From: a virus
Direction: 5' to 3' (one strand)
Length of the DNA stretch: 29,670 nt
Virus record (IMG/VR): IMGVR_UViG_3300048925_000559
Span: 1 to 29,670 of that record
The notes under the pieces are model-generated. The model saw only the letters and a list, made by a program, of their open reading frames with translations. It made no database searches and had not been told where the DNA came from. Position numbers and translations under genes: made by a program. This document shows, piece after piece, positions 6,069-23,404 of this stretch. Position 1 is the first letter of the stretch. Every line of letters starts with the position of its first letter.

Positions 6069-6443
6069 ATGCTGCTGCACGCATTGCTCAAACACGTCGA
6101 AGCCGAAGGGCTGGGAACCGAAGGAGGGTCCCTGTTCCTGGGCCGGGCGCCGCAGGACACCGCTACGGGATCGGTCTTCCTGCCGCGGGGCGGAACCCGC
6201 CGCGACTATGCGCAAGGCCTTCGCCGGCTTTCCTTCCAGGTCCGCACCCACGATCCCGACTATCTCGCCGGGGAGGCCCGCGCCCTGGCGATTGCCGACG
6301 CCCTGACCCTGCGGGCGGCCCCGGCCGGGGGCTGTTTCGTCATCTCGTGCCTGCCCCAGCACGAGCCGCTGATGCCCCACGACGAGACGGCAAGCACCTT
6401 CACCTTCATCGTCAACTATCGCGCCGACTGGCGTGTCGCCTGA
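6069..6443 (+). CDS. Tail terminator / minor capsid-like protein
   Basis: The 124-residue protein starts at ATG 6069, with GGAG and GAGG stretches just upstream. It lies immediately before the tube gene, the position occupied by the tail terminator (lambda gpU) in siphophage tail modules. The sequence has a middle segment HDPDYLAGEARALAIADAL and the ending STFTFIVNYRADWRVA. This layout, a helix with paired small residues and a final strand, is what I associate with the bacteriophage minor-capsid/tail-completion family. Its expected role is to cap the growing tail tube at the head-proximal end and stop polymerisation. In a headless tail it would close the top of the particle. The family assignment is by pattern and position only. 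Confidence 0.65.
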   Translation: MLLHALLKHVEAEGLGTEGGSLFLGRAPQDTATGSVFLPRGGTRRDYAQGLRRLSFQVRTHDPDYLAGEARALAIADALTLRAAPAGGCFVISCLPQHEPLMPHDETASTFTFIVNYRADWRVA

Positions 6444-6459
6444 TTAGGAGACTATACCC

Positions 6460-6981
6460 ATGGCCATCACCACCGAAGACATCGCCCTCGGCATCTGCGA
6501 CGTCACCTTCGACGGCATCGATCTCGGCTCGACCAAGGGCGGCGTCGAAGTGACCGTCAAGACCACGAACTATCAGGTCAAGGCCGACCAGATGGGCGAG
6601 ACCCCGATCAAGGACGTCATCACCGGCACCGAGGTGTCGGTCAAGGTGCCGATGCTGGAAACCAACCTGACCAAGCTGCTGGCGGTGATGCCGCAGGCGG
6701 TCGGCGTCGGCGCGGCCGGTGCTGAGGTCGGGGTCGAGATCCGCTCCGGCGTCAACATCGACCTGCTGGCCATCGCCGCCCCGCTGAAGCTGCACCCCAC
6801 CGCCCTGCCCGCCTCCACCACCAAGGACGATTTCGTCGCCTTCAAGGCCGCGCCGCTGCCCAACTTCACCTTCAAGTACGAGAACGGCGGCGAGCGCGTC
6901 TACGAGGTCACCTTCAGCTGCTATCCGGACGGCACCGCCGGCAACCGCATCGCCGCCTTCGGCGCCCCCGTCGCCGCCTGA
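6460..6981 (+). CDS. Major tail tube protein
   Basis: The 173-residue protein is preceded by a good AGGAG. It begins MAITTEDIALGICDVTFDG and has the beta-rich, Lys/Thr/Val-rich texture of siphophage tube proteins. Features include a GGVEVTVKTTNYQVKADQMG stretch, a TGTEVSVKVPMLETNL loop and a C-terminal strand pair ending VYEVTFSCYPDG. Hexameric rings of such proteins stack to build the non-contractile tube. It would be the most abundant product of the locus, consistent with its place near the 5' end and with the strong hairpin that follows at 6996-7023. No N-terminal signal or membrane segment is present. Confidence 0.75.
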   Translation: MAITTEDIALGICDVTFDGIDLGSTKGGVEVTVKTTNYQVKADQMGETPIKDVITGTEVSVKVPMLETNLTKLLAVMPQAVGVGAAGAEVGVEIRSGVNIDLLAIAAPLKLHPTALPASTTKDDFVAFKAAPLPNFTFKYENGGERVYEVTFSCYPDGTAGNRIAAFGAPVAA

Positions 6982-6995
6982 CCGCGATGGTCAAC

Positions 6996-7023
6996 GGCCG
7001 CGGGGGCTTTCGTCCCCGTGGCC
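6996..7023 (+). terminator. GC-rich hairpin after the tail tube gene
   Basis: GGCCGCGGGG (6996-7005) pairs with CCCCGTGGCC (7014-7023) over 10 bp, with one G-U pair and an 8-nt loop. It starts 14 bp after the tube stop codon. No U-tract follows. The likely effect is partial termination or 3'-end protection that raises tube mRNA over the downstream genes. Confidence 0.5.
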
Positions 7024-7065
7024 GCCCTCGCGGACCTTGCCTGCCACCAGCGACCGGGACCCTCC

Positions 7066-7356
7066 ATGCCCCAGCCCACCATCCTGAACCTCGATGAGTT
7101 CCGCGTTTCCCGCAGCGTCGTCATCGGCGGGCGCGAGCGCATCCTGAAGAACATGACCGTCGAACAGTTCCTGCAAGCCGGGGACATCGAGCGGAAGGAC
7201 ACCCCGCGCGAGGAGATCCTCGGCCTCGATCTGGGTCAGCTCCTGGTCCTGCTGGCCTTCATCCGCGGGATCGATCCGGCGGGAGACGGCCAACCGGGGG
7301 AACGCCAGCCGGGGGAGCCGCGTGCGGGCAAGCGGGGGAACCGTCGGGCCCGCTGA
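7066..7356 (+). CDS. Tail assembly chaperone, gpG-like
   Basis: The 96-residue protein starts at ATG 7066 (MPQPTILNLDEFRVSRSVVI); the frame can be extended to a GTG at 7018, but that part overlaps the hairpin and looks non-coding. The core (RERILKNMTVEQFLQAGDIE, then LGQLLVLLAFIRGID) matches the kind of short helical protein found between tube and tape measure in siphophages. It would coat the tape measure protein during assembly and not remain in the finished tail. The C-terminus is a low-complexity Gly/Pro/Arg tail with three GGG codons, next to which the next frame opens. See the frameshift site and the gpT-like feature. Confidence 0.65.
   Translation: MPQPTILNLDEFRVSRSVVIGGRERILKNMTVEQFLQAGDIERKDTPREEILGLDLGQLLVLLAFIRGIDPAGDGQPGERQPGEPRAGKRGNRRAR
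7333..7340 (+). other. Candidate -1 ribosomal frameshift site
   Basis: In the gpG-like frame the codons here are CGG GGG AA(C), with a run of five G. Slipping back one base lets a P-site tRNA re-pair perfectly on GGG and continue in the gpT-like frame as E-P-S-G-P-L-T-R-L-D-F. It is not a canonical X-XXY-YYZ heptamer. Two earlier CCG GGG GA(A/G) stretches (about 7294-7302 and 7309-7317) are alternatives. Confidence 0.4.
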
Positions 7357-7676
7357 CGCGGCTCGACTTCACCTACTGCTTCGCCCGCGTCAGCCGCTTC
7401 TATGGCATCGACCCGTTGCGCCTGCTGGCGCTGCCGGTGCGGATGTTCTGGACCCTGTTCAACGAGATCGACCGGCTGCGCGCGGAAGAGATGGCCGACT
7501 GGCTGCCGGTGCATCTGACGGCGGCCGGCGTCGGCGCCCGCGAGTTGCACGACCGGCTGCGCCAGCGGGTCGGCACGCCGCTCGCCTTCGCGGACCTGCC
7601 CGATGGCGGCCCGGCGGCCGGGGAGCCGGGCCTGACCGAAAAGGCCAGAACCAGACTGCGTGCCCGCTTCGGCTAA
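7353..7676 (+). CDS. Tail assembly chaperone, gpT-like, in the -1 frame
   Basis: This frame encodes LTRLDFTYCFARVSRFYGID, then PLRLLALPVRMFWTLFNEID, RLRAEEMADW and onward to a stop at 7674. The aromatic-rich helical segment with W-x-L-x-x-E/D resembles phage tail assembly chaperone C-terminal parts. No ATG or GTG occurs in this frame between about 7206 and 7443. The first conventional choices are TTG 7416 and ATG 7443, which would cut through the conserved segment. A CTG at 7353 overlaps the upstream TGA. The simplest reading is synthesis as a gpG-gpT fusion of roughly 200 residues by -1 frameshifting, as in lambda. The start given is the first codon past the upstream ORF and is not a proven initiation site. 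Confidence 0.6.
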   Translation: MTRLDFTYCFARVSRFYGIDPLRLLALPVRMFWTLFNEIDRLRAEEMADWLPVHLTAAGVGARELHDRLRQRVGTPLAFADLPDGGPAAGEPGLTEKARTRLRARFG

Positions 7677-7691: not shown

Positions 7692-9014
7692 ATGGCTGAA
7701 AACGCCGCTGGCCCGATCATGACAATCACGTTCGATAAGTCTTGCACCGCTTCCATCAAACGCCTGGATGGTACCGTCAGCAATCTTGCGGTGCAGACCT
7801 ATTCCTTGCTGGATGAGACGCGCCAGCAACTCAATGAGATTCATGAGGCTGGCAAGAATCTGATCACACCCAAGGCGGTGGCCAACCGTTTTGCGGCGCC
7901 TTACAGCGCTGCCGCACAGTTTGCCCAAGAGCAAACCGATGCGAAGGCTGCGCAAGGTGCTCCGTCGGACGCACCCGCGCAGAAGACCGACGAGGCCGCC
8001 AAGAAGTACAATCAGGTGATGGGCTCTGCTTTGCGTCCGCTTGGCGAACGTGTGAAGGCCAGCTTCGGCGACGGCTTGCAAAGCCTGCTCGACGGTTGGA
8101 GCGACGGCGTGCTGAGCGTCGTGACCGGCAAGCAGCAAATCGGTCCCGCCTTTCAGAAGCTGTTCACCACCATGCGGAACCAGTTGCGGGATTTCCTCGT
8201 GAAATCGATTGCGCAACAGACCGGCGCCGGGCTGCTCAACGTGCTGGGCTTCAAGACCAGCATCCCCGAAAACGGTAAATCCGCCGCGAAGGCCGGCGAT
8301 CCGTCGGCATCCGCTCAAACGGACAGGAAGGACGAAGCCAAAGCGTCCTCCGACACGTCGGCGAATGGAAATGGGACAGCTGGCGGCGGCTCGACCGGCA
8401 CGGCCGATACCGGCAACGGACTTTCCAATTTCATCGACTCGCTCTTCACCTCCGACAGCCTGCTCGGCACCATCTGGTCGAAGATTTCCGACCTCTTCAA
8501 GTCGGGTGGACTGCTCAGCGGCCTGATGTCCAGCATCTCCGGCCTCTTTTCCTCACTGTTCAAACCCGAAGGGCCGCTGGGCGGCATCCTGTCGGGCGTC
8601 GCCAGCTTCTTTTCGGCGTTCTTCCACACCGGCGGCATCGTCGGTGAAACCGGCCGGCCGGGGCGGATGATGTCCGCCGGGCTGTTCGCCGGCGCTCCCC
8701 GCTTCCACACCGGCGGTCTGGTGGCGGGCGAGGTTCCGATCATCGCCCGCAAGGGCGAGGCCGTCTTCACGCCGGAACAAATGACGAACGCTGACCGCCT
8801 GATCCAGGCGGCGCAGGATGGCGGCCGTGCGGTGACCCAGTCGGTGACGGTGAATGTTGCCGGCGGCTCCACCGGCGACCGCGAGCAGGACAAGGCGCTC
8901 GCCGAACGGATCGGCGCGTCGGTCAAGGAGCAACTGCGCGCGATGATGGGCAACGAGCTGCGCCAGCAGATGCGGCCCGGCGGCATGCTGAACAACATGA
9001 GCTACGGAGGCTGA
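7692..9014 (+). CDS. Tail tape measure protein (short)
   Basis: The 440-residue protein is preceded by AAGGG. Residues 1-150 are helical, with Ala-rich heptads. A second helical part (LRPLGERVKASFGDGLQSLL, QKLFTTMRNQLRDFLVKSIA) leads into a Ser/Gly/Thr-rich linker at about 200-248. Amphipathic and hydrophobic helices follow (FIDSLFTSDSLLGTIWSKIS, SGLFSSLFKPEGPLGGILSG). The C-terminus carries the lambda gpH-type repeat: FHTGGIVGETGRPG and FHTGGLVAGEVPIIARKGEA followed by VFTPEQM. Tape measures fill the tube lumen and set its length, at about 0.15 nm per residue, so about 65 nm is predicted. The first 300 bp are less GC-rich than the neighbours. No lytic transglycosylase or peptidase domain is evident. 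Confidence 0.82.
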   Translation: MAENAAGPIMTITFDKSCTASIKRLDGTVSNLAVQTYSLLDETRQQLNEIHEAGKNLITPKAVANRFAAPYSAAAQFAQEQTDAKAAQGAPSDAPAQKTDEAAKKYNQVMGSALRPLGERVKASFGDGLQSLLDGWSDGVLSVVTGKQQIGPAFQKLFTTMRNQLRDFLVKSIAQQTGAGLLNVLGFKTSIPENGKSAAKAGDPSASAQTDRKDEAKASSDTSANGNGTAGGGSTGTADTGNGLSNFIDSLFTSDSLLGTIWSKISDLFKSGGLLSGLMSSISGLFSSLFKPEGPLGGILSGVASFFSAFFHTGGIVGETGRPGRMMSAGLFAGAPRFHTGGLVAGEVPIIARKGEAVFTPEQMTNADRLIQAAQDGGRAVTQSVTVNVAGGSTGDREQDKALAERIGASVKEQLRAMMGNELRQQMRPGGMLNNMSYGG

Positions 9015-9467: not shown

Positions 9468-10214
9468 ATGAGCCAGACCAACATCCCCCAATGGGATGAA
9501 CGGCCGGCGCTTGCCGCCGCCGCCCAGTCGCCCGATCCCGGTGCCTATGTGACGCTGTTCACGCTGGACCTGACCATGTATCCCGGCGGCACGATCCATC
9601 ACTTCACGCCCTCGGGCAGCGGCGGCGAGCCGGTCCTGTTCGGCGGCATCGCCTATGTCCCGGTCGAGATGGAGACCGAAGGGTTCGAATGGACGGCGAC
9701 CGGGGCGCTGCCGACGCCGCGCCTGCGCATCGCCAACATCAACCGCCAGCTCTCGGCGTTGATCTACCAGTTCTCCGACCTGCTCGGCGCCAAGGTCAGG
9801 CGGCTGCGCACCTTCGACCGCTATCTCGACGGCCGGGCGGAGGCCGACCCGCTCGCCTTCTTCCCGCCCGACCTCTACCGGATCGAGCGCAAGAGCGCCC
9901 ACACCGCCACCCATGTCGAGTTCGAGCTGTCGGCGGCCATCGACCAGGAGGGGGCGATGCTCCCCGGCCGGCAGGTGCTGCGCGACGGCTGCACCCGCCG
10001 CTACCGCCATTGGACCGGATCGGGATGGTCGGCCGAAGAGGTCGATTGCCCCTATTCCGGCAGCCGCTGCTTTACTGCGACCGGCGAGAGTACCGGCGAT
10101 TCGGCCAAGGATGCCTGCGGCAAGCGGCTGGCCGACTGCCGCCTGCGCTATCCCAACTCGACCGATCTCCTGCCTTTCGGCGGCTTTCCCGGCGTCTCCC
10201 GGATCCGGGTCTGA
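9468..10214 (+). CDS. Minor tail protein, lambda gpL-like, probable iron-sulfur protein
   Basis: The 248-residue protein is preceded by AAGGA. The N-terminal part (VTLFTLDLTMYPGGTIHHFT, FEWTATGALPTPRLRIANIN) and the middle (RRLRTFDRYLDGRAEADPLA) match the gpL family of distal tail proteins. The C-terminal third has clustered cysteines at C175, C194, C201, C217 and C224, with C194-x6-C201 and C217-x6-C224 spacing. Lambda gpL carries a [4Fe-4S] cluster in the corresponding region, so this protein probably does too. The cluster would be loaded by host machinery before tip assembly. It works with the gpM, gpK and gpI-J neighbours at the tail tip. Confidence 0.87.
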   Translation: MSQTNIPQWDERPALAAAAQSPDPGAYVTLFTLDLTMYPGGTIHHFTPSGSGGEPVLFGGIAYVPVEMETEGFEWTATGALPTPRLRIANINRQLSALIYQFSDLLGAKVRRLRTFDRYLDGRAEADPLAFFPPDLYRIERKSAHTATHVEFELSAAIDQEGAMLPGRQVLRDGCTRRYRHWTGSGWSAEEVDCPYSGSRCFTATGESTGDSAKDACGKRLADCRLRYPNSTDLLPFGGFPGVSRIRV

Positions 10215-10256: not shown

Positions 10257-10964
10257 ATGTTCACCGCTGACGCGATCCTCGCGATGAAGCGCCACGCCCT
10301 GGCCGACTATCCGCGCGAGAGCTGCGGTCTGGTGGTGGCCGGCATCTACCGGCCCCTGTCCAACCGCGCCGCCGACCCGGCGGCCCATTTTCGCATCGAC
10401 GATGCCGACTACCTCGCCCATGCCGGCGCCATCGACGCCATCGTCCACAGCCATCCCGACGGGCCGCTCCATCCGTCGGCCGCCGACATGCGCGGCCAGA
10501 TCGACAGCGCGGTCCCTTGGGCGATCCTGGCCACCGACGGGGAGCGCTGTTCCGATCCGATCCTCTGGGGAGACGGCGTGCCGGTGCCCGACCTGATTGG
10601 CCGCGAGTTCCGTCACGGCGTGACCGACTGCTACGCCCTGGTGCGCGACTGGTTCCAGCTGGAACGGGGCATCCGGTTGCCGGATTTTCCGCGCGACGAC
10701 GAGTGGTGGCACGCCGGCAAGAACCTCTATCTCGACCATTTCGCCGACGCCGGCTTCTCGGTGGTCCGCTCCGGCGAGGCGACGGCCGGCGACGTCGCGC
10801 TGATGACCGTGCTGTCGCCGGTGCCCAACCATGCCGGCGTCGTCCTCGACGGCGGCCTGCTGCTGCACCACCTGCCGCGCCGCCTGTCGCGCCGCGAACC
10901 CTTCGGCCCCTGGCACCGGCAGATCGTCCACATCCTGCGTCATAAGGATCTCGCTCATGGCTAG
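10257..10964 (+). CDS. Tail tip assembly protein, lambda gpK-like (JAMM + NlpC/P60)
   Basis: The 235-residue protein has two domains. Residues 1-110 form an MPN/JAMM metallopeptidase with E21 (ESCGLVV) and the zinc motif HSHPDGPLHPSAAD (H64, H66, S74, D77). Residues 118-230 form an NlpC/P60 cysteine peptidase with C125 (GVTDCYALV), H192 (PNHAGVVLD) and a third polar candidate at H204/H205. Both active sites look intact. In lambda-type tails this protein is needed for tip assembly, and the peptidoglycan-peptidase half may help local wall opening. AGAGGAG precedes the start. The 3' end overlaps the next gene by 8 bp, implying translational coupling. Confidence 0.92.
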   Translation: MFTADAILAMKRHALADYPRESCGLVVAGIYRPLSNRAADPAAHFRIDDADYLAHAGAIDAIVHSHPDGPLHPSAADMRGQIDSAVPWAILATDGERCSDPILWGDGVPVPDLIGREFRHGVTDCYALVRDWFQLERGIRLPDFPRDDEWWHAGKNLYLDHFADAGFSVVRSGEATAGDVALMTVLSPVPNHAGVVLDGGLLLHHLPRRLSRREPFGPWHRQIVHILRHKDLAHG

Positions 10965-13900
10965 GATCCATCTGCACGGCGCGCTCGGCCGCCAATTCGG
11001 GCGCCTTGCCGACTATCAGGTCCGCGACGCCGCCGAGGCGATCCGGGCGCTCGCCGCCAACCATCCCGATTTCGAGAAGGTCTTCCGCGAAGGCTCCTAC
11101 CGGCTGGTCCGCGCCCCGCGCTCGCGCGGCGGCATCGACCTGACCCTCGACACCCTGACGCTCGGGTTGGGCAGCGCCGACCTGCACATCATCCCGGTTC
11201 CGGCCGGCGCCAAGAGCGGCGGCGCCGGCAAGGCGATCATGGGCGCGCTGATCATGGTCGTGGCGATCTATGCCGCGCCCGCCGTTGTTGGCGCGCTCGG
11301 CCCGACCCAGGGACTTGGCGCGGCAGCAATCTCAGCGGGGAGTTTCTCCGTCTCCTACGGCTCGATCGCCCTGTTCGGCGCATCGATGATGCTGTCCGGC
11401 ATCAGCCAGATGCTGTCGCCGACCCCCAAGGCCAACCTGCCCGACAGCAAGCAGAGCTACCTGTTCTCCGGCCCGGTCAACGTCACCGAACAGGGCGGAT
11501 CGGTTCCCCTGATCTATGGCCGCTGCTGGGTCGGCTCGACCGTCATCTCCTCCGGCATGGATACAGAGCAGACCGGAACCGTCCAGCCCCAGCCGGCGGT
11601 ATCGGCCGTCACCGCCGCTTCAGCTGGAGGTCCGGCAGGCGGCATCCAGGGGGCCAAGGGTGGCAAGTCCGGCCGCGGCGGTTCCGGCGCCACCGAGGAC
11701 GCCAACAGCCTGCAGTCCAATGCGACCGCCCGGGTGATCGACCTGCTGGGCGAAGGCGAGATCGTCGGGCTGGTGAATGAGGGGAAGAGCATCTATTTCG
11801 ACGGCACGCCGCTGATCGCCTCCGACGGGACGGAGAACTTCAAGGGCGTGAGCTGGAAGCTGCTCAAGGGACTGCCCTCCCAGGACGCTGTCGAGGGCTT
11901 CGCCGACAGCGAGACCTCCGTCGCGGTCGGCGTCGAGGTGAAGAAGACCAGTCCGGTCGTCCGCACAATCCATAGCGACGAGATCGACACCGCACGCATC
12001 GTGCTGCGCTGGAACGCGCTGACCGAGCAGGACACGTCCAATGGCGACCTGCACGGGTCTTCGGTGGAGCTGACCATCGAGGGGCGGGCGGCCAATGGCA
12101 GCTGGACGCACCTGCTCGGCGACACGGTGAGCGGCAAGACCACCAGCGCCTACGAACGGTCCTACAAGGTCGGGCTGCGCCGGCTGGGCAAGGCGCCCTA
12201 CGACATCCGCGTCACCCGCGTCACCCCCGATGCGACCCGCGCCTCGGTCCAGAACAGCTTCTCCTGGTCCCATTATGGCGAGATCGTCGAAGCCAAGTTC
12301 GGTTTCGACAATTCGGCGCTGGTCGCGCTGACGGTCAAGGCCGAACAGTTCGGCAACTCGATCCCCGAACGGGCCTATGACGTCAAGGGCCTGAAGATCA
12401 AGGTCCCCTCCAACTACGACCCGGAGACGCGGACCTATTCCGGCCAGTGGGACGGCAGCCTCAAGACCGCCTGGAGCGACAACCCGGCCTGGGTGCTCTA
12501 CGACCTGCTGACCAACAGGCGCTACGGCCTGGGCCAGTCGATCTCCGCCGAGGCGGTCGACCGCTGGTCGCTCTACACCATCGGCGTCTATTGCGACCAG
12601 CCGGTCAAGTCGGGCCGGACCGACACCGGCGGTCGCGACATCATGGAGCCGCGCTTCACCTTCAATGGGGTGATCTCCGGCCGGACCGAGGCTTACCGCG
12701 TCCTCCAGTCCATCGCCTCGACCTTCCGCGGTCTGATCTTCTGGTCGGCCGGCGGCGTGCTGGCCCGCGCCGACATGCCGGCCGATCCGATCAAGCTGGT
12801 CACCCCGGCCAACGTCATCGGCGGCAGCTTCACCTATTCCGGCACGGCGCTGAAGGCCCGCCACACCGCGGCGCTGATCACCTTCAACGATCCCGACGAC
12901 GGCTACCGCCCGACGGTCGAGGTCGTCGAGAATGCCGGGATGATCCAGCGCTACGGCTGGCGGCCGATCGAGGCGACGGCCTATGGCTGCACCCGGCGCA
13001 GCCAGGCCCGCCGCCTCGGCCTGTGGATGCTCGACAGCGAGCAGCACGAGACCGAGACCGTCACCTACCGCTGCTCCTTCGACCATCTCGACGTCATGCC
13101 GGGCGACGTGGTCAAGCTGGCCGACCCGAACTGGGCGCTGGTGCGCACCGGCGGGCGGCTGGTCGCCTACGACCCGGAGCGGCAGGTCGTCACCCTCGAC
13201 GACACGGTGACGCTGGAAGCCAACCAAAGCCACGTGCTGGCGCTCACCCTGCCGGACGGGCGGCTGGTCGACTGCCCGGTCCGCCGCCCGGTGCAGTCGA
13301 CCGAGGAACACACCACCGGCCAGCTCGCCATCGACGCGGCTCCGCTCGGCGGCGCGGTGCCGCAGCCGCATGCGGTGTGGATCCTGACCGCCACCAACCT
13401 CGCCCCGCGCCTGTTCCGGGTGCGCGCCGTCACCGAGAAATCGCCCGGCGTCTACGAGGTCACCGCCCTGCTGCACGAGCCCGGCAAATATGCCCGTGTC
13501 GAGGAGGGCGTGCAGATCGAGCCGGTGGCGACCCAGAGCGCCGCCAACGCCATCCCATCCCCCGCCAACCTCGCGGCGGTGGAAAGCGCCTATTGGGTCA
13601 ACGGCCTGCCGCAGGCCCGGCTGACCGTCAGCTGGACGCCCAGCGACGATGCCCGCATCGCCGGCTACCGCGCCGACGTGATGACGCCGGGCGGCCAGTG
13701 GCAGGAATGGAAGGTCACCCGCGCCGGCAGCTTCGACATCGAGCCGGCGGCGGAGGGCGTCTACACGCTCCGCATCACCGCATTGGCCTACGACAACCGC
13801 CGCTCGGCACCTGCGGAAATCCGGGCCACGGTGCGCGGCAAGGGAACGCCGCCCGGCCAGCCCGCCGGGCTGGTCGCCAAAGGCGGGCTGCGCCAGATCG

Positions 13901-15546
13901 CCCTGTCCTGGGTCAATCCGCCCGACACCGACCTCTCCCACATCGAGGTGCTGGAGGGGGCGGCGAACGACCTGTCGGCCGCCGCCGTCATCAGCACGGT
14001 CAAGGGCAACGCCTTCGTACGCGCCGGGTTGGGCGGGCTGGTCACGCGCTACTACTGGGTGCGCGCCGTCGATCTCGGTGGCAATGTCAGCGACGTCAAT
14101 TCCAACATCGGCACCGGTGCCACCACCGAGCAGATCTCCCACGACGACCTCGCCGACAAGCTGGTCTCGGAATCGAAGCTCGTCCCCATCCTGGCCGAGC
14201 GCATCACCGGGATCGAGAAGATCGCCGAGACGGTCACGTCGGGTCTGGTGCGCGTCAACGACAGCTACGGCCGCATCCGCAGCGAGATCGGCAGGCGCGA
14301 GGCCGACGTCGCGGAGGTGAAGGCGGACGTCAGGCAGGTCCAGGACGACACGCAGTCGCTGGCGAGCCGGGTCACCACCGTCGCCGCCCAGTTCGACGGG
14401 CAGATCGCCACCGTCAAGGAGGAACTGACGGCGCTGGTGACGGCGGACGAGGCGACGGCGACGCGCATCGACACGGTGGTCGCGGCCTGGGACGGAAATC
14501 TGGCCGGCGTGCAGGCGAAGCTGACCGCGACGGCGAACGACACCCGGACCAATGCCGAGCGCATCGACAGCGTCGTCGCCGGCTACGACAAGAGCCTGGC
14601 CGGCTATGACAGCCGCATCACCGCCAACGCGACCGCGACCGGCGCGCTGACCACGCGTCTGGATGTGATCGGCGCATCGGTCGACGGCGTGAAGGCGGGG
14701 CTGACCAGCGAGCAGACCGCCCGTGCCGACGCCGTCGGTGCTCTCGCCAGCCGGGTCGACAGCGCGTTCGTGGAAATAAAGGGTGTTTCAGGGTCCTTTC
14801 AGGAAAGCGTCAACCTGGCGGTCAAGGATGCAAAATCCGCCGTCGACAAGGTAACCCTCCTCAGCGGCACGGTCGGCAATCACACCTCGTCCATCGAGCA
14901 GGTCTCGAAAGTAGCCGACGGGCTGTCGGGGCAGTGGACGGTCAAGATCGACAACAATGGCTGGATGTCGGGGTTCGGCATCGCCTCTACCCCACCGTCC
15001 GACAACTCGGGCCATCCTGTCTCCGAATTCGCCGTGCGGGCCGACCGCTTCCTGATCGGCATTCCGACGGTCGCCGGCGGTATCGACCACCCCTTCGTCA
15101 TCGGCAAGGTGGACGGGATGTCTCGCATCTCCATGTCCGCCGCCTTCATCCAGGATGCCTCGATCGACAGCGCGAAGATCAGAGATGCAACGATCTCCAG
15201 CGCACACATCCAGGATCTGACGATCCGGGGCCAGAAGATCGAGGATTTCGCCACCGGCAATATGGCGGGGGTCCGCGCCGACATCACCAGCTGGACCGGT
15301 GGTGCCATGCAGATCGGCCCGAAAATTCCTTTGGACTGTACGGGGAAGCCGGTGGCGTTGATCGCGAGCTGTACCGGCTTTTCCAGCTCGAACGACGGCG
15401 CAACTGCCGGATTCGAATCAAGGACAGCCTCGGTAGTCATAAGATCTCGTCCTGGATACAACGAATGGTGGGCGTGCGATATTCTCGGGACATACTTCCC
15501 GATTGGCGTAACCGTCTACGTGACCGCAATTGAACTGAGGAAGTAG
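10957..15546 (+). CDS. Fused tail assembly gpI + host-specificity gpJ protein
   Basis: The single 1529-residue frame starts at ATG 10957 after AAGGA. Residues 1 to about 195 match lambda gpI: MARIHLHGALGRQFGRLADY, the mid-segment IIPVPAGAKSGGAGKAIMGA, then a hydrophobic region and VPLIYGRCWVGSTVIS. A Gly/Ser-rich linker (about 222-250) leads without a stop into gpJ (about 250-860), with landmarks ARVIDLLGEGEIVGLVNEGK, KVPSNYDPETRTYSGQWDGS and a conserved GGR segment. Two fibronectin-III-like domains follow (about 868-1057), then a long heptad-rich coiled coil (about 1060-1325). The C-terminus is DUF1983-like (GQWTVKIDNNGWMSGFGI) with short repeats IQDASIDSAKIRDATISSAH. It forms the trimeric central tip fibre and receptor contact. 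Confidence 0.93.
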   Translation: MARIHLHGALGRQFGRLADYQVRDAAEAIRALAANHPDFEKVFREGSYRLVRAPRSRGGIDLTLDTLTLGLGSADLHIIPVPAGAKSGGAGKAIMGALIMVVAIYAAPAVVGALGPTQGLGAAAISAGSFSVSYGSIALFGASMMLSGISQMLSPTPKANLPDSKQSYLFSGPVNVTEQGGSVPLIYGRCWVGSTVISSGMDTEQTGTVQPQPAVSAVTAASAGGPAGGIQGAKGGKSGRGGSGATEDANSLQSNATARVIDLLGEGEIVGLVNEGKSIYFDGTPLIASDGTENFKGVSWKLLKGLPSQDAVEGFADSETSVAVGVEVKKTSPVVRTIHSDEIDTARIVLRWNALTEQDTSNGDLHGSSVELTIEGRAANGSWTHLLGDTVSGKTTSAYERSYKVGLRRLGKAPYDIRVTRVTPDATRASVQNSFSWSHYGEIVEAKFGFDNSALVALTVKAEQFGNSIPERAYDVKGLKIKVPSNYDPETRTYSGQWDGSLKTAWSDNPAWVLYDLLTNRRYGLGQSISAEAVDRWSLYTIGVYCDQPVKSGRTDTGGRDIMEPRFTFNGVISGRTEAYRVLQSIASTFRGLIFWSAGGVLARADMPADPIKLVTPANVIGGSFTYSGTALKARHTAALITFNDPDDGYRPTVEVVENAGMIQRYGWRPIEATAYGCTRRSQARRLGLWMLDSEQHETETVTYRCSFDHLDVMPGDVVKLADPNWALVRTGGRLVAYDPERQVVTLDDTVTLEANQSHVLALTLPDGRLVDCPVRRPVQSTEEHTTGQLAIDAAPLGGAVPQPHAVWILTATNLAPRLFRVRAVTEKSPGVYEVTALLHEPGKYARVEEGVQIEPVATQSAANAIPSPANLAAVESAYWVNGLPQARLTVSWTPSDDARIAGYRADVMTPGGQWQEWKVTRAGSFDIEPAAEGVYTLRITALAYDNRRSAPAEIRATVRGKGTPPGQPAGLVAKGGLRQIALSWVNPPDTDLSHIEVLEGAANDLSAAAVISTVKGNAFVRAGLGGLVTRYYWVRAVDLGGNVSDVNSNIGTGATTEQISHDDLADKLVSESKLVPILAERITGIEKIAETVTSGLVRVNDSYGRIRSEIGRREADVAEVKADVRQVQDDTQSLASRVTTVAAQFDGQIATVKEELTALVTADEATATRIDTVVAAWDGNLAGVQAKLTATANDTRTNAERIDSVVAGYDKSLAGYDSRITANATATGALTTRLDVIGASVDGVKAGLTSEQTARADAVGALASRVDSAFVEIKGVSGSFQESVNLAVKDAKSAVDKVTLLSGTVGNHTSSIEQVSKVADGLSGQWTVKIDNNGWMSGFGIASTPPSDNSGHPVSEFAVRADRFLIGIPTVAGGIDHPFVIGKVDGMSRISMSAAFIQDASIDSAKIRDATISSAHIQDLTIRGQKIEDFATGNMAGVRADITSWTGGAMQIGPKIPLDCTGKPVALIASCTGFSSSNDGATAGFESRTASVVIRSRPGYNEWWACDILGTYFPIGVTVYVTAIELRK

Positions 15547-15547: not shown

Positions 15548-15979
15548 ATGACAGCTTCTTCTCTGAATTTTCCAATTTCTTCTGATATTGGAACAGAAGC
15601 GATGCCCGGACAGGTGGATTACATCGCATATGACGATGTTGGGCACATCTGGCAGACGGGCATCTGCGCTGCCGATATGCTCGACCGGCAGACTTCGGAT
15701 CATCCGCATCTCAGGATTCTCGTCGCCAAGGCCGATAACGCCACCGACCATATCGACCTGTCGGGCGAGGCTCCGGCGGTGCGTCGCCGCCCTACCATCG
15801 CCGGTCTCGACCAGCTGCCGGATGGGGCGGTGGTGGAGGTGCGCTGCCTCATCACCGGCTCGACCAAAAGCTACACCGTCAACGACGGCTCCTTCCAATA
15901 CGACGACCTGCCTGGGACCTATCGGGTGACGGTGCGCCGCTTTCCCTACATGGACTTCGTCATGGAGATCCGGCTGTGA
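15548..15979 (+). CDS. Small tail-associated protein, unrecognised
   Basis: The 143-residue protein starts one base after the gpI-J stop; its ribosome site (GAGGAAG) lies inside the previous gene. The first 25 codons are noticeably A/T-rich. The N-terminal half (PGQVDYIAYDDVGHIWQTGI) reads like a short surface-exposed beta domain. The C-terminal half (about 85-143) resembles a carboxypeptidase-regulatory-like beta sandwich (TIAGLDQLPDGAVVEVRCLI, then FQYDDLPGTYRVTVRRFPYM). I do not recognise a named family. Position between tip protein and fibre suggests a fibre connector or decoration protein. Confidence 0.7.
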   Translation: MTASSLNFPISSDIGTEAMPGQVDYIAYDDVGHIWQTGICAADMLDRQTSDHPHLRILVAKADNATDHIDLSGEAPAVRRRPTIAGLDQLPDGAVVEVRCLITGSTKSYTVNDGSFQYDDLPGTYRVTVRRFPYMDFVMEIRL

Positions 15980-16185
15980 AGGTTACCAACGTCCGCACCC
16001 GCGACGAGATCGCGAAGCTGCGCCAGCAGGCCTACCTCGCCGCATGGCCGGCGGCCCGGCAACTGGAAGCCCAGCAGGACATGCTGAACGGCAACCCCGC
16101 CAAATGGGAGCGCATGCGCGCCGACTTCTCGGCGATCCGCGCGCTCTATCCCTATTCCGACACGACCCCCAGCGAGGAGAACTGA
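15976..16185 (+). CDS. Small helical tail protein, possible fibre assembly factor
   Basis: The 69-residue protein begins with GTG inside the GTGA overlap with the previous stop. It is helical and charged (VRTRDEIAKLRQQAYLAAWP, PAARQLEAQQDMLNG, AKWERMRADFSAIRALYPYS). No motif is recognised. Its size, tight overlap and location directly before the giant fibre gene fit a fibre-assembly chaperone or small adaptor. Confidence 0.65.
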   Translation: MKVTNVRTRDEIAKLRQQAYLAAWPAARQLEAQQDMLNGNPAKWERMRADFSAIRALYPYSDTTPSEEN

Positions 16186-16186: not shown

Positions 16187-19100
16187 ATGGCCGGCTGGTA
16201 TCGCCAAGGCACCGTCGCCCTGACCCCCGGATCGGCCGCCGTCGCCGGCGCCGGCACCATGTGGATGGGCGTCGTGCGTCCGGGCTCCGCCTTCACCACC
16301 GACGGCAGGACGCTCTACGAGATCCGCGAGGTCGCCAACGACCGCACGTTGACCCTCGACCGCCCCTGGGAGGGCGAGACGGTGGCGGCGTCCGCCTATG
16401 CCGTCATCGCCGCGTCGGCGACCCTGTCCAACGCCGAACTGGCCGGCGAGATCGCGGCGATGGTCGCGAAATGGGCGGTGCGCGAGGACCAGTACGACGA
16501 CTGGCTGGGCGGCTCCCCGAACGGCGGCCCGAATGCCGACGGCAAATATCCGCTGACCGACAGCAAGGGCGTCACCCGTCTGGTCGAAAGCCCGGCCCGC
16601 CTGCTCCAGCTCCTCGACGACGGGGTGGTGGAGCATGCCGCGCAGATCATTGCCGCCATCGAGGATGACGTGGCGACGGCACGGCAGGCCGCCACTGCCG
16701 CCACGGCGGCGATGACGGCCGTCGGCGCCGACCGGCAGGCCGTGGCGCAAGCCGCCGCGACCGTCGCTGCGCAGACCGGCGAAAGCAGCGCCGCCGTCGC
16801 GACCGCGACCGCCCAGGCGGCCATCGCCGTCCAGCGCGCCGATGAGGCCGCCGACAGCGCCGCTGCCGCGGCCGGGCTGGAGGCGTCCGCCACCGCGGCG
16901 CTTGCCGCCGTGGAAACCGCACGCGACATCGTGCTGGAGGCGCGGACCGAAGCCGGCACGGCGGCGACCGGCGCCCTGTCCGCCAGAACGGCGGCCGAGG
17001 TGGCGCGCGACACCGCGACCGCTGCGCGGGATGCCGCCCAACAGGCGCGCGACGCGGCGGTGACGGCACGGACGCAGGCACAGGACTGGGCGGTGAAAAC
17101 CGACGCCCCGGTCTCCGGCAACCTGAAGTCGGCGCTGTCCTACGCCCTGGACGCCGCCTCCCAGGCTTCTGTCGCCACCGGCAAGGCGACGGAAGCCTCC
17201 GGCAGTGCCGTCGCGGCCGCCGCGAGCGCCGCCGCTCTCGACACTGCGGCAACCGCTGCGCAGGCCGCCGCCGGCAATGCGGCGACCGGCGCTCAGACCG
17301 CGACCGCCAAGGCTGCCGCTGCTGCCATCTCCGCCGACACCGCCCGTTCCGCCGCACAGCAGGCGGAAACCGCCGGGACCGGCAGCGCCACGGCCAGGAC
17401 CGCGGCGGAGGCGGCCCGCGACAGCGCGGCCACCGCCATGACGGCGGCGCAGGTCGCCGCCTCCCAGGCCGGCCAGTCGCAGACCAACGCCGCCAACAGC
17501 GCGCAGACGGCGGCAACGGCGGCAGCGGACGCGATCTCGGCCAAGTCCGATGCGACCGCCGCCCGCGATCTGACCGTGGCCGCCCGCACGGAGGCCCAGG
17601 GTGCCCGCGATCTGGCCCAGGCCTTCGCCCAGGGCGCCGTCGGCTATCAACCCAGCCCCGGCGTCTATTCCGCTTTCCATTGGTCGGAGCAGGCCAAGGG
17701 CCATGCCCAGACCGCCGCGACCATCGTCGGCGGCTCCAATTTCGGCATCGTCGGCGACGGCGCCTCGCAGCGCTTCGCCGCCGACAACCCCGGCTCCCTG
17801 CTGAACCTCGTGCAGGCCCCGGGCGGCAAGCTCACCTTCAACCCGGGCAACCACGCGGTCTCCTTCGGCTTCGATGCCACGACGGCGCCAGTGGCGGCAT
17901 CCGGCAACATCACCGCCGGCACCGTGCAGGGAGCGCTGGAGGAGATCGACCACCGGCTGTCCACCCTGTCGCAGGACAGCATCGCCAACGGCGGTGGTTC
18001 GGTTCATGTGACGGAGGACGGAGCGGTCGAGATCGTCCCGGCCGCCGGCCGGACGGCGACCTACAAGGGTGGTGAGCTGCACACGTCCGCGACCGCCTAC
18101 GGCAAGGCGCAGACGGATGCCGCCATCGCCGCCATGATCGCTGCCGGGCAGGCGGCCGGTGCGGCCAGGCTGACGACGCCCCGCACCATCGCCCTGTCGG
18201 GCGGAGTGACCGGCACGGCGACCGCGTTCGACGGCACCCAGAACATCGCCATCCCGGTGACGGCGGTGGCGGCGTCGGCGCTGACCGGCACCATCGACAT
18301 CGCCCGTCTGCCGGCAGGCGCGCTGGAACGCCTGTATCCGGTCGCCAGCGACGCCGAGCGCTTCGCCCTGACCACCGCCCAGGTGCAGAAGGGCGACACG
18401 GTGCAGGTCGGCGGCACCGGCGGCCTGATGTATCTGGTCGTCGACGAAAGCAATCTCGGCAACGCGGCGGGCTACCGGGCCTACACCGCGGCACGCGCTT
18501 CGGCGGTGGACTGGTCCGGGGTGGAGAGCAAGCCGGCTCTGCTGACCGCCCTCGCCTCGTTCGACAACGCTGCCGGCGTGCTGACGCAGACCGGAGCAGG
18601 CACTGCCGCCAAGCGGGCCGTCGGCACGGCAGCGTCGACCGATATTCCGGATCGGGCGGCGGCGGACGGGCGCTATGCCGTGCTGTCCGGACCGACCTTT
18701 ACCGGCACTGTTGCCACCAGTATCGGCACACTCGCCGCCTCCTCCGGCAGCGAGATCATCCACGGAACCCGCTTCAGCGGAAGCGGAGGCGGCAATGGTG
18801 ACAGCTTGATCACCCGCTATCTGCGCACCGGCACCACCACCACAGACTGGAAAACCGGTGCGTGGGAAATCCGCCGCCGGGTCGATGTCACCGATCAGGG
18901 CTTCATGCGCTTCGGTGGCTCGGCCACCCAGCAACTGTCCTGGGGCTTCAACGCTACCGAACGGCTGGCGCTGCCGATCACCGGCAGCCTGACGCTGGAC
19001 GGCCAGACCGTCTGGACGGCGGGCAACGATGGGGCGGGTTCCGGCTGCGACGCCGATCTGCTGGATGGCCTGCAGCCGGCGACGGCGGCGACCGTCAACA

Positions 19101-22100
19101 CCATCGTTCAGCGCGACGGTAGTGGCAACATCCAGGCCAACGGCTTCGGCGGCGCCTATGTCGCGCTGACGTCGGCCAGCCCCAACATGACCATGACGGA
19201 GACGGACGGGGCGACGGACGGCAAGCTCTGGATCAGGGCGGTCAACAACGGCATCCTCACTGACTACATCGCCAACGATGCCAACAACACCGGGGTGACT
19301 TGGCGCACCGTGACCCGCTCCGGTATGTCGATCACCGGCATCGACTACAAAATCACCCCGACCGTCAACGGCGCTCCGTTCAACGCCAACAGCGTCACCA
19401 AGTCGGCAGTCACGGTTCTTCCGGCCACCGGTATCCTCGACGTCCCCGCCAAGTCGATCCTGGCGGTCTACAGCCAGTTCGTCGGCCAGGTCTTTAACGT
19501 CGATTACAACACCGAGGCGCAATACACCCAGGAGAATGCCGCCACCGGCACCGATCAGGTCGGCGGCCAGTTCCAGCTTTACAGCACCGCCGGGGGCGGC
19601 GGGGCCGATGCCGCCACCAAGCTGCTGATCCACGCCGATGGCGCCAATGGCTCGACTGAGATCATCGACGAGCGCGGCATCACGCCGTTCGGCACCCATT
19701 GCGGCTGGTTCGACGGGGCGAGCTGTTGGAAGGTTCCCTCCAGCTACAAGCTGGCCTTCGGTTCTTCCCAGGACTTCACCTACGAATTATGGATTCGACC
19801 GCAGGACGTGGTCAGCCCGCACGTCCTGTTCGACCTGCGCCCCGCCTCCGGCTCGGATCCGACCACAACCCTGCACATCGAGAGCGGTACGTTCCGGCTC
19901 AACACCGCCGGAACGACCACCCGAATCAATGCCGGTAGCGCCGTCGCCGACAGCTGGACCCATGTCGCATATGTGCGGCGCAACAGCACAGGCACCCTCT
20001 ACATCGGCGGCGTTTCCGTCGGGTCGTGGACGGACACGAGCGTCTATGCCAACAGCCCCCTCCACATCGGCGTGTCCGGCTACAACAACACCTCGTTCTT
20101 CCTGGGCTGGATGGATCAGTTCAGGGTGTCCAGGATCGCCCGCTACACCGCCAACTTCACGCCCCCGACCACGGCGTTCGTCACCGATGCCGACACCGTC
20201 CATCTGTTCAGCTTCGACGACGGCCATGGCGGGCAGGTGCTGAAGGACCGCGCCAACAGCGGTCGCCCCGTCCTCCTCGGCGGCAGCGGCGCGGCGATCT
20301 CCAGCGAGCAGGCCAAATTCGGAACCACCAGCTTCAAACTCGGCACAGGCGGATCGTGCGTCGTCGGCTGGGGCAGCACGCCGCAAGCGGATCTCGCCTT
20401 CGGCAACGACAACTTCACCGTCGATTTCTGGTGTTACAAGACCAACACCGGCGACGCCGTGCTGTGGTCGGGCGGCAACAACGCCTATGCCCCGCAGTTG
20501 CGCACCAACGGCGCCGGCGGCGCGATTACCGTCTATCTCAGCACCGACAATGCATCCTGGAACATCGCTGCGGCTAGCACCGGAGCGGTCCCGACGGTCA
20601 ACGCCTGGAACCACATCGCCATCACGCGCAGCGGCACCACCTGCTACGTCTTCCTGAACGGTGCAGTGATCGGCACCTACATGGTCGGGACCGGCTCCTT
20701 CACCATGAACGGCCCCTACCACTATTTCGGCGGCGCCAGCGACAACTCGGCGATCATGGCCGGCCATATCGACGAGGTGCGGATCAAGCGCAGCGAGGCG
20801 GCCTGGATTTCCGCCTTCACCCCGCCGACCGCCGCCTACGCTCCCGACGCTCGCACCGTGCTCCTGCTGCATTTCGATGGCGCGAATGGAGACAGGATGA
20901 CGCTGGACAGCAGCGGGTCGAGCTATGGGATGAATGCGTTCGGGGACAGCGTCACCCCATCGGGCACCGTCACCACCGCGCTGTCGGCAACCTACACCCG
21001 CGCCGGTCACGCGACTTCGATGCCCGGCTATTTCTACTATGGCTTCGCTGGGGCCAGCGGTGCCAACCCCTCCGGCCATCCGCTCTATTTCGGCCCGAAT
21101 ACCAAGCTGTGCCTTGAGGGCTGGTATTACTTCCCGAGCATCCCTGCTGATGGTGTCGGTATCTTCTCGCTGCTCAACTACGGCATCCCCGCCAATAGCA
21201 GCAGTCTTTATTGCCGTATCTACGCCGGTCAGCCAAAGCTCGCGGTGAACGGAAATGAATGGGTAGCCGTTGGCCCGGCAATCACAGCGGGGTGGAATCA
21301 TATTGCCGTGCTGCGCGAAGCGCGCGGCTGGTGTGTCTATACCAACGGCGTTGGCGGCACCATCGCCAATCCGGCCATCAATATCGCCTACCCGGGCGGC
21401 GGCACCGAATGGCGTCTGCAAATCGGCGCCTATGACGGCGGTGTCGGCACCATCGCCGGTTCCGGCGTTATCGACAGTTTCCGCGTCACCAACGGGCAGC
21501 CGCGCTACACCACCAACTTCACGCCGGCCACCCTGGTCAGTGATGACATGACCACTCTGTTCTGGGAGTTCAACGGCGCGGTCGGCCAGAAGTGGGTGAA
21601 GGAGCTGAGCCAAAACACGGCGCTGATCGCTGCCAACGGCAATGCCCGCACGGTGAAGGATGGGGTATGGATCGCGCCCAATTTCGGTAACGGCAACACG
21701 ATGCCGCAAATCGGCACAGGTCAAGCCAAATTCGGAACCGGGTCTGTATATAACGGCGGCTCTGGCTATGCTTGCCAGACCGTTCCGAATGCCTCTTGGA
21801 TGAGCGGATCGGTCGATCTGACAATTGAGGCGTGGGTACGTCCCGAAAACTACTCAAGCTCCCGCATCATCGCACAAAAATGGGGGGCGTCCGATGAGAC
21901 GTGGGCGTTCTACCTCGATACCAACGGATGGCTGAAGTTCCGCTACAAAGGAACAAGCTTCAATAGTGACTTGTACGCTGGCGGCCCGCAAGTCATCCCT
22001 CTGAACACTTTTACGCATGTGGCGGTTACGATCTCTTCTGCCGGGACTGTGGCGTTTTTCGTCAACGGAGCTAAGTTCGGGTACGGGGGGGCCGGTGGCG

Positions 22101-22750
22101 GCACAGCTATGCGGACAGACAGTAGTGGACCGTTGATGCTGCTCGGCTCGACTAACGGCGGTGACTATGGCATCGCTGGCTATGTGGACGAACTTCGCCT
22201 CTCTACCGGAATTCGCTGGAGCGCCTCCTTCACCCCGCCGACCATTCCCTACGGCAGCAGCTACGTCACCGGCCCCTTCTATGTGGCGACGCTCGACAGC
22301 AGCCGCATCGACGTGTCGGACTGGAGCACGATCCATTCGGCGACGATCGCGCAGACCACCCCGCCCGGTACCAGCATCAAGTGGCTGGTCAGCTTCGACG
22401 GCCGGGCGACGTGGCGGAAGTGGGACGGATCGGCCTGGGTTGTCGTGCCCCTCAACAGCGGGGCCAGCATCGACACCAACGGCAACGATTATCTGACCCT
22501 GCAGACTGCCCTCACGAACCTGAACGTCGAAGCCTACAGCACCATCGACTTCGCCTTCTCGCTGAAGACGGCCAACCCGAACTTCTCGCCCAGCGTCGAT
22601 GCGGTGACTCTGGCGCGGGACGAGTACGAACTCGGGGCCGCCAAGATCGACTACACGATCAAGCGCAACGGTGCGGCCGGGGCCGAAATCCACCGCATCA
22701 CCAACCTGAAGCCCTACCCGGTCAACGTCGTCTACGACTACGTCGCCTGA
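16187..22750 (+). CDS. Giant tail fibre with Ala-rich coiled coil and four LamG-like domains
   Basis: The 2187-residue protein is preceded by GAGGAG and starts 1 bp after the previous stop. Residues 1-155 form a probable tail-attachment region (MAGWYRQGTVALTPGSAAVA, WEGETVAASAYAVIAASATL). Residues 159-485 are a very Ala-rich heptad region (repeats such as ARTAAEVARDTATAARDAAQ), a long trimeric stalk. Residues about 490-1140 are beta-rich, with phage-fibre-like motifs (RAAADGRYAVLSGPTFTGTV, TVWTAGNDGAGSGCDADLLD). Residues about 1143-2018 hold four tandem LamG/concanavalin-type domains with repeated WNHIA or WTHVA, DEVRI and FTPPT motifs. A C-terminal domain of about 165 residues follows. It should bind a target-cell surface glycan or protein. 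The C-terminus shows no recognisable intramolecular chaperone. Confidence 0.9.
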   Translation: MAGWYRQGTVALTPGSAAVAGAGTMWMGVVRPGSAFTTDGRTLYEIREVANDRTLTLDRPWEGETVAASAYAVIAASATLSNAELAGEIAAMVAKWAVREDQYDDWLGGSPNGGPNADGKYPLTDSKGVTRLVESPARLLQLLDDGVVEHAAQIIAAIEDDVATARQAATAATAAMTAVGADRQAVAQAAATVAAQTGESSAAVATATAQAAIAVQRADEAADSAAAAAGLEASATAALAAVETARDIVLEARTEAGTAATGALSARTAAEVARDTATAARDAAQQARDAAVTARTQAQDWAVKTDAPVSGNLKSALSYALDAASQASVATGKATEASGSAVAAAASAAALDTAATAAQAAAGNAATGAQTATAKAAAAAISADTARSAAQQAETAGTGSATARTAAEAARDSAATAMTAAQVAASQAGQSQTNAANSAQTAATAAADAISAKSDATAARDLTVAARTEAQGARDLAQAFAQGAVGYQPSPGVYSAFHWSEQAKGHAQTAATIVGGSNFGIVGDGASQRFAADNPGSLLNLVQAPGGKLTFNPGNHAVSFGFDATTAPVAASGNITAGTVQGALEEIDHRLSTLSQDSIANGGGSVHVTEDGAVEIVPAAGRTATYKGGELHTSATAYGKAQTDAAIAAMIAAGQAAGAARLTTPRTIALSGGVTGTATAFDGTQNIAIPVTAVAASALTGTIDIARLPAGALERLYPVASDAERFALTTAQVQKGDTVQVGGTGGLMYLVVDESNLGNAAGYRAYTAARASAVDWSGVESKPALLTALASFDNAAGVLTQTGAGTAAKRAVGTAASTDIPDRAAADGRYAVLSGPTFTGTVATSIGTLAASSGSEIIHGTRFSGSGGGNGDSLITRYLRTGTTTTDWKTGAWEIRRRVDVTDQGFMRFGGSATQQLSWGFNATERLALPITGSLTLDGQTVWTAGNDGAGSGCDADLLDGLQPATAATVNTIVQRDGSGNIQANGFGGAYVALTSASPNMTMTETDGATDGKLWIRAVNNGILTDYIANDANNTGVTWRTVTRSGMSITGIDYKITPTVNGAPFNANSVTKSAVTVLPATGILDVPAKSILAVYSQFVGQVFNVDYNTEAQYTQENAATGTDQVGGQFQLYSTAGGGGADAATKLLIHADGANGSTEIIDERGITPFGTHCGWFDGASCWKVPSSYKLAFGSSQDFTYELWIRPQDVVSPHVLFDLRPASGSDPTTTLHIESGTFRLNTAGTTTRINAGSAVADSWTHVAYVRRNSTGTLYIGGVSVGSWTDTSVYANSPLHIGVSGYNNTSFFLGWMDQFRVSRIARYTANFTPPTTAFVTDADTVHLFSFDDGHGGQVLKDRANSGRPVLLGGSGAAISSEQAKFGTTSFKLGTGGSCVVGWGSTPQADLAFGNDNFTVDFWCYKTNTGDAVLWSGGNNAYAPQLRTNGAGGAITVYLSTDNASWNIAAASTGAVPTVNAWNHIAITRSGTTCYVFLNGAVIGTYMVGTGSFTMNGPYHYFGGASDNSAIMAGHIDEVRIKRSEAAWISAFTPPTAAYAPDARTVLLLHFDGANGDRMTLDSSGSSYGMNAFGDSVTPSGTVTTALSATYTRAGHATSMPGYFYYGFAGASGANPSGHPLYFGPNTKLCLEGWYYFPSIPADGVGIFSLLNYGIPANSSSLYCRIYAGQPKLAVNGNEWVAVGPAITAGWNHIAVLREARGWCVYTNGVGGTIANPAINIAYPGGGTEWRLQIGAYDGGVGTIAGSGVIDSFRVTNGQPRYTTNFTPATLVSDDMTTLFWEFNGAVGQKWVKELSQNTALIAANGNARTVKDGVWIAPNFGNGNTMPQIGTGQAKFGTGSVYNGGSGYACQTVPNASWMSGSVDLTIEAWVRPENYSSSRIIAQKWGASDETWAFYLDTNGWLKFRYKGTSFNSDLYAGGPQVIPLNTFTHVAVTISSAGTVAFFVNGAKFGYGGAGGGTAMRTDSSGPLMLLGSTNGGDYGIAGYVDELRLSTGIRWSASFTPPTIPYGSSYVTGPFYVATLDSSRIDVSDWSTIHSATIAQTTPPGTSIKWLVSFDGRATWRKWDGSAWVVVPLNSGASIDTNGNDYLTLQTALTNLNVEAYSTIDFAFSLKTANPNFSPSVDAVTLARDEYELGAAKIDYTIKRNGAAGAEIHRITNLKPYPVNVVYDYVA
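19613..22250 (+). repeat. Four tandem LamG-like domain repeats in the fibre
   Basis: The protein-level units begin near 19613, 20230, 20890 and 21600. Each has an ELWIRP, DFWCYK, EGWYYF or EAWVRP strand, a W-x-H-[IV]-A strand and a DEVR-, DSFR- or DQFR-type strand. Each ends in a junction near FTPPT followed by a T-V-x-L-L/F-x-F-D segment. The units are diverged at DNA level. The third and fourth have visibly more A and T than the rest of the gene. Confidence 0.75.
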
Positions 22751-22757
22751 CGCGGGC

Positions 22758-22781
22758 GGTCCCGGGGCCATCCCCGGGACC
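22758..22781 (+). terminator. Perfect GC hairpin after the fibre gene
   Basis: GGTCCCGGGG (22758-22767) and CCCCGGGACC (22772-22781) pair perfectly over 10 bp with a 4-nt loop, 7 bp after the fibre stop. No U-tract follows. It probably reduces readthrough into the lysozyme gene or stabilises the long upstream mRNA. The remainder of 22751-22897 holds no gene. Confidence 0.5.
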
Positions 22782-22897
22782 TGCTCCCGATCCGGTGGAA
22801 CGCTGCCGCCCCGACGGTCCCGGCAACGCTCCGCCGGATCCGTTCTTCCCCTGTCTCCTCACCCACCGGCCCACCTATCGCCCGGGAGTCCCGATCC

Positions 22898-23404
22898 ATG
22901 CCCGATCCGATCTGCAAGGCCGCCATCGACCTTGTGAAACATTTCGAAGGCCTGTCGCTCAAAGCCTATCTCTGCCCGGCCGGCATCCCGACCATCGGCT
23001 ATGGCCACACCGCCGGGGTGACGCTCGGGCAGAGCATCACCGCCGCAAGGGCCGAAACGCTGCTGTCCCGCGACCTCGCCGCCGCTGCGGCCGTGGTCGA
23101 CAGGCTGGTGGCGGTGCCGCTGAATGGCGGGCAGCGCGGCGCGCTCGCCAGCTTCGTCTTCAATCTGGGGCGAAGCAACTTCCAATCCTCGACCCTGCTG
23201 GAGCGGCTCAACATGGGAGACCATGAGGGGGCTGCCACCGAGTTCGGCCGCTGGGTCTACGCCACCGTCAATGGCAGGAAAACCCAGCTTCCGGGCCTGG
23301 TGAAGCGCCGGGAGGCCGAGGCCCTGCTGTTCCGCCGCAATCTTTTCCTGACCAGGATCGCCGCGGCCGATCCGATGCCGCAGGCCCTCGACGATCCTGC
23401 GTGA
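22898..23404 (+). CDS. GH24 phage-type lysozyme (endolysin)
   Basis: The 168-residue protein is preceded by GGGAG at good spacing. It has the GH24 active-site block HFEGLSLKAYLCPAGIPTIG followed by YGHT, with catalytic E17 and T32. At the T4 Asp20 position there is Cys26, a variant common in this family and compatible with activity. The GGQRGALASFVFNLG and LPGLVKRREAEALLF segments are also typical. It cleaves N-acetylmuramic acid-N-acetylglucosamine bonds in peptidoglycan. No signal peptide, SAR anchor, adjacent holin or spanin gene was found, so release to the periplasm needs a factor elsewhere. In a tailocin it would lyse the producer to free particles. Confidence 0.92.
   Translation: MPDPICKAAIDLVKHFEGLSLKAYLCPAGIPTIGYGHTAGVTLGQSITAARAETLLSRDLAAAAAVVDRLVAVPLNGGQRGALASFVFNLGRSNFQSSTLLERLNMGDHEGAATEFGRWVYATVNGRKTQLPGLVKRREAEALLFRRNLFLTRIAAADPMPQALDDPA

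Follow-up and report, generated by a model that had tools for sequence, protein, structure and literature searches.

A conserved headless lambda-type tail operon of Azospirillum as a probable F-type tailocin

Does a complete phage tail that lies between host genes, with no head beside it, belong to a dead prophage, to a particle whose head is encoded elsewhere, or to a weapon kept by its bacterial host? The locus that raises this question lies in a window of 29,670 nucleotides, which is the whole of IMG/VR record IMGVR_UViG_3300048925_000559 and not a chromosome, and relatives stood in for genome-wide tests. ORF calling and profile searches recovered, at window positions 5,898-23,404, an unbroken lambda/F-pyocin-type non-contractile tail operon together with a T4-type lysozyme. 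The genes run in the order U, V, G, G-T, H, M, L, K, I-J, two small genes and a 2,187-aa fibre, with all tail parts on the + strand, in lambda order and in open frames. The original prediction of a complete lambda-type tail with a lysozyme, on one strand and open, is thus confirmed by ORF calls and by Pfam and PHROG matches. Because this tail gene set is complete and ordered, and for the further reasons set out below, the locus is probably a conserved, functional-looking F-type tailocin, that is, a headless non-contractile tail formed from a domesticated siphophage tail operon of Azospirillum. The features are as follows.

5961..5998, no strand: conserved dyad TCATCCGTTTAAAGGA-n6-TCCTTT..CGGATGA upstream of U, candidate operator
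6069..6443, + strand: U, tail terminator (PF12691, 2.3e-8; omega 0.03-0.12 in five lineages)
6460..6981, + strand: V, tail tube (phrog_2175, 5.5e-40; tail-tube fold neighbours; 99-100% identical in five lineages)
7066..7356, + strand: G, tail assembly chaperone (phrog_893, weak; position)
7098..7676, + strand: T frame (-1) of the predicted G-T frameshift product (-1 register in all aligned relatives)
7692..9014, + strand: H, short tape measure, 440 aa (C-terminal match to tape-measure PHROGs; alignment with a 1,169-aa phage protein)
9018..9407, + strand: M, minor tail protein (PF05939, 2e-25; lambda M and F2-pyocin M in the PDB)
9468..10214, + strand: L, tail tip hub (PF05100, 1.2e-39; phrog_18; best PDB match F2-pyocin hub)
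10257..10964, + strand: K, tip protein with JAB and NlpC/P60 domains (PF14464 (Prok-JAB), PF00877; phrog_30, 4e-98)
10957..15546, + strand: I-J fusion, tail tip and central fibre (Pfam; phrog_31, phrog_32; PDB F2-pyocin fibre, 2e-139)
15548..15979, + strand: variable 143-aa protein between J and fibre (phrog_18216, 2e-5; 37-67% identity between lineages)
15976..16185, + strand: small conserved 69-aa protein (84-99% identical in six lineages)
16187..22750, + strand: fibre, 2,187 aa, residues ~831-2009 variable (PF13385 LamG, 1.7e-57; mosaic identity profile)
22898..23404, + strand: T4-type lysozyme without an adjacent holin (PF00959, 2.5e-44)
23470..24453, - strand: serine recombinase adjoining the tail unit

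V has no Pfam match and is the tail tube by its PHROG match and its predicted fold; the AlphaFold model, of low confidence (pLDDT 62), has PDB fold neighbours that are mostly phage tail tubes. By sequence, U and the tape measure have no PDB relatives and V has no credible one, and the tape-measure profile match of H covers only the C-terminal part. Pfam domains in I-J are Lambda_tail_I (just below the cut-off), FNIII-A_GpJ, Phage-tail_3 and Phage_Tail_Tip; an ORF start called at 10831 is spurious, the fused I and J occupying 10957-15546. The string CCG-GGG-GAR in the G/T overlap is conserved in the window family and in a related 112-kb phage, as a programmed G-T frameshift would predict, with slippage proposed by analogy to lambda. 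No head, packaging, replication or repressor gene occurs in the unit when all frames of the window are annotated, which upholds, for 5898-23404, the predicted absence of these genes; nor does the unit contain the integrase that, like replication and packaging genes, marks an intact prophage. There is no sheath gene among the annotated frames of the window, in which everything from U to the fibre is present.

With L as query, close copies turned up in Azospirillum sp. TSH64 and A. melinis, in a B510-like genome and in several other IMG/VR records. Removal of duplicates (G005 = G001, G007 = G002, G006 = G032) left seven distinct lineages, the window included. Five of the six others carry the tail at the window's chromosomal site, as far as their flanks reach, and the B510-like one carries it elsewhere. 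Window flank genes lie on both sides of the tail in TSH64, A. melinis and G004; G009 has the GGDEF gene upstream and the recombinase and HTH gene downstream, and G003 has the GGDEF gene upstream, its record ending at the lysozyme. Two genomes have no tail at the site. In G024, homology over aqpZ-GGDEF stops at window 5852 and a different gene follows to the contig end, and in G041 homology jumps from window 3894 to 24703, nothing but a tyrosine recombinase lying between the flanks. The window and the B510-like copy are homologous from 5898 to the lysozyme stop at 23404, and a LacI-type gene directly follows the lysozyme in that copy. Together these ends of homology therefore define a tail unit of ~5.9-23.4 kb, which starts near 5898, upstream of U, includes the dyad and ends at the lysozyme stop. 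That its boundaries match those at the second insertion site and take in nothing beyond promoter region, tail and lysozyme, and that sister strains share the site and other species have it tail-less, support the tailocin reading. The expectation that sister strains would share the chromosomal place and differ mainly in the fibre was borne out; no capsid genes lie next to the tail at this site in relatives, and sister species have the site without the tail. The tail region occurs on two TSH64 contigs (G001:C1, G001:C2) without a difference over at least 29 kb, and is probably duplicated in the assembly and not in the genome. A V query against 385 alphaproteobacterial genomes returned TSH64 only.

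Host-type genes had been predicted at both ends of the tail. This holds in that neither flank of the window contains phage structural genes, but the serine recombinase at 23470-24453 had been missed. The upstream flank consists of a nucleotidyltransferase, a possible LuxR-type regulator, an aquaporin and a PAS-GGDEF gene, and the downstream flank of the recombinase, an HTH protein and two TPR proteins. The recombinase is probably not part of the tail unit, since similar recombinases adjoin the same HTH gene where no tail gene L was found. A role as fibre invertase was rejected: no convincing inverted repeats beyond the GC-rich background surround the fibre, and genomes in which no tail was found also have the recombinase paired with the HTH gene. 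Several Azospirillum genomes pair the same HTH protein with a serine or a tyrosine recombinase, as though the latter could be exchanged (window 23470-25782; L083, L084, L088, L091). The HTH protein is weakly like RHE_PE00001, and its gene is split in A. melinis (L032:6262-13113) and G044 (L089/L090) by a ~16-kb insert with TniB and TniQ (Tn5053/Tn402-like). Transposons of this type aim at resolvase sites.

Within the unit, selection and variation are unevenly distributed. The dN/dS of U, V, M and K is 0-0.13 against the five lineages at the site, and the frames are open; these four genes are under strong purifying selection. In the B510-like copy omega is 0.09 for K and 0.26 for M, U and V lying in masked sequence. 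Open tail frames with omega mostly 0-0.13 for these genes add to the case for a tailocin. The dS of the flanking genes falls in the same range as that of the tail genes, which fits vertical inheritance. Divergence between lineages affects the end of J, the 143-aa protein and fibre residues ~831-2009, and in most lineage comparisons DNA homology breaks at 15264-15743 and 18678-22214. The fibre contains four LamG-like stretches, and patches of it are common to the window and G003 (~aa 1200-1800) or A. melinis (~aa 1800-2000). We read this mosaic as recombining receptor specificity, a suggestion drawn from the identity profile. The contrast between a mosaic receptor part and a conserved remainder again favours a tailocin, and the locus is thus kept by selection at a fixed site with a variable receptor part.

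A hydropathy scan found no holin-like gene beside the lysozyme, and there is no repressor or activator among the annotated frames of 5898-23404; a regulator with the tail genes is common in known tailocins and is not needed for the particle type. The missing regulator and holin, and a tape measure that is short with a variable N-terminal part, are points that speak against the tailocin reading. All six lineages at the site conserve the dyad at 5961-5998, and in TSH64 it has perfect 16-bp inverted-repeat arms. With up to 3 mismatches allowed, the tail locus is the only place in TSH64 and A. melinis where its pattern occurs, and four other genomes have no match. Read by eye, lineage changes give mismatches and not compensation, against an RNA hairpin; because such changes break the arms rather than compensate, an operator fits better, and the dyad is a candidate operator on this pattern of conservation. 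SOS induction found no footing, there being no alpha-type or gamma-type LexA-like box upstream of U.

The closest complete relative of the unit is a 112-kb Azospirillum-type phage, IMGVR record 2896201746 (G008). Its tail genes have the same order as those of the window unit (72% identity for L, 78% for V, 77% for K) but, unlike the unit, it also has terminase, portal, scaffold, capsid and replication genes, and its tail is followed by a lysozyme and a GTA-type holin, the latter being absent from the unit. Its tape measure has 1,169 aa, whereas that of the Azospirillum unit has ~403-440 aa with the C-terminal region kept. The phage (L038-L040, L057-L059) also carries nucleotide-metabolism genes. 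Phage and unit form a phage/tailocin pair, in which steps of domestication would be directly readable: head loss, tape shortening, holin loss and fibre swapping. An L homologue occurs in 10 of the 82 genomes of the family, three of these being the close ones. At other sites, G016 (L041/L042), G023 (L043/L044) and G033 (L045/L046) each have a headless tail cluster of siphophage type flanked by host genes. Their tape measures are 709, 1,037 and 304 aa long, respectively, and no lysozyme adjoins the clusters; in G023 a divergent repressor-like gene lies beside the tail. By reading of their ORFs, G021, G051 and G087 have tails in prophage contexts with head genes, and G084 has phage replication genes upstream of the tail. 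A speculative and rather doubtful generalisation is that Azospirillum repeatedly reduced the tails of siphophages to minimal devices without a head (one family, at two sites, and three further loci), dropping the regulator, the holin and often most of the tape measure, in three cases without an adjoining lysozyme; release would then be host-controlled or non-lytic, and the rods of the window family unusually short.

The loss of integrase, regulator, holin and most of the tape-measure length relative to G008 could also indicate a prophage remnant in decay, in which the tail half of the dead phage survives with no present function. This explanation is improbable, as in several lineages the tail frames are open and U, V, M and K evolve under strong purifying selection, the tail unit is intact at the second, B510-like site, and the tail genes of A. 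melinis are intact next to a PAS-GGDEF neighbour (window 4116-5813; G002:C112) that is frameshifted there. Very unlikely, too, is a tail-derived device for adhesion or signalling, surface-borne or released without lysis and not a killer. The LamG-type receptor domains of the fibre, the missing holin and the three headless clusters without adjoining lysozyme would suit it, but LamG-like stretches are also present in phage structural proteins, M, L, K and J are all retained as in killing tailocins, and the unit's lysozyme is retained under purifying selection.

A head encoded elsewhere, making the unit the tail of a split particle such as a gene transfer agent or satellite, would be consistent with reports that A. 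lipoferum and B510 release particles that carry ~10 kb of DNA and were interpreted as gene transfer agents (PMC3899980). In TSH64, genome-wide searches gave no match to capsid (PF05065) or portal (PF04860), and the same head searches gave matches in Caulobacter, the control, and in prophage-bearing Azospirillum. Terminase matches in TSH64 (two, to phrog_2) and A. melinis were weak and were rejected as a RecD-like 727-aa ATPase and a separate gene in host context. These profiles represent HK97-type, common heads and would miss unusual ones; the G008 head is weakly seen by PF05065 and not by PF04860. The major capsid protein of G008 used as query, run without a positive control, had no match in six genomes. 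A. melinis has one PF04860 portal gene (G002:C4:8425-9414) and no PF05065 capsid match in its genome. In the B510-like genome, the prophage head genes are followed by tail genes of their own. The head and packaging genes that a gene transfer agent would have in the same genome were thus not found in TSH64, and a split particle is highly improbable; the lack of capsid, portal and credible terminase in TSH64 instead supports an F-type tailocin. This agrees with the original prediction, for which no partner head module was recognised in this relative, and its candidate F-type tailocin is now supported by the shared site in sister strains, by the absence of recognised head genes in TSH64 and by the PDB matches of J and L.

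As an F-type tailocin, the locus would most likely serve as a tail-shaped weapon against related bacteria, and we infer particle formation, lysis, release, pore and killing. In the producer, transcription of the 17.5-kb unit would start at a promoter close to the conserved dyad. The tip, made up of J, I, L, M and K, would assemble, as would the fibre; V would polymerise into a tube around the short tape measure, and U would cap the end that would have met a head. Lysis of some producer cells, by the lysozyme aided by a holin encoded outside the unit, would set the rods free; if ~0.15 nm per tape residue applies, these would measure roughly 60-70 nm. Target choice would lie with the variable LamG part of the fibre, and binding may open the tip and leave a pore in the target envelope.

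Few groups are known to have flexible tailocins, and prophages and GTA-like particles have been reported in Azospirillum (PMC3899980). An element of ~20 kb in Azospirillum sp. B510, B510PP02, was described as a prophage (PMC3899980) and, judged only by size, is possibly the B510 copy of the tail unit (G032/G006 locus). A literature search by titles and abstracts found no tailocin of Azospirillum. Rhizoviticin of Allorhizobium vitis is the reported first alphaproteobacterial F-type tailocin; its induction goes through recA, and it retains a replication/repressor region, an integrase remnant and a putative holin (PMC10811719). On the sequence evidence, the Azospirillum locus is likely to represent a second such lineage, and, if so, its spread across several plant-growth-promoting Azospirillum species would bear on inoculant competition on roots.

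The F-type pyocins of Pseudomonas aeruginosa (F2-pyocin, PDB 25vf) are, like the Azospirillum unit, headless lambda-type tails. The best PDB match of J is the F2-pyocin fibre (2e-139, against ~1e-118 for lambda J) and that of L is the F2-pyocin hub (7e-30, against 6e-21 for lambda), and this proximity of J and L is a further reason for the tailocin reading; in the same sequence comparison M is nearer to lambda than to F2-pyocin. The unit differs from the F-pyocins in having no regulator or holin, in its 2,187-aa LamG fibre and in its site and regulation, F-pyocins being regulated differently. By description, rhizoviticin and the Azospirillum unit are both headless siphophage-type tails with a lytic enzyme. 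Unlike rhizoviticin, the unit is without a replication/repressor region, integrase remnant and holin, and its own peculiarities are a ~440-aa tape measure and a private conserved upstream dyad.
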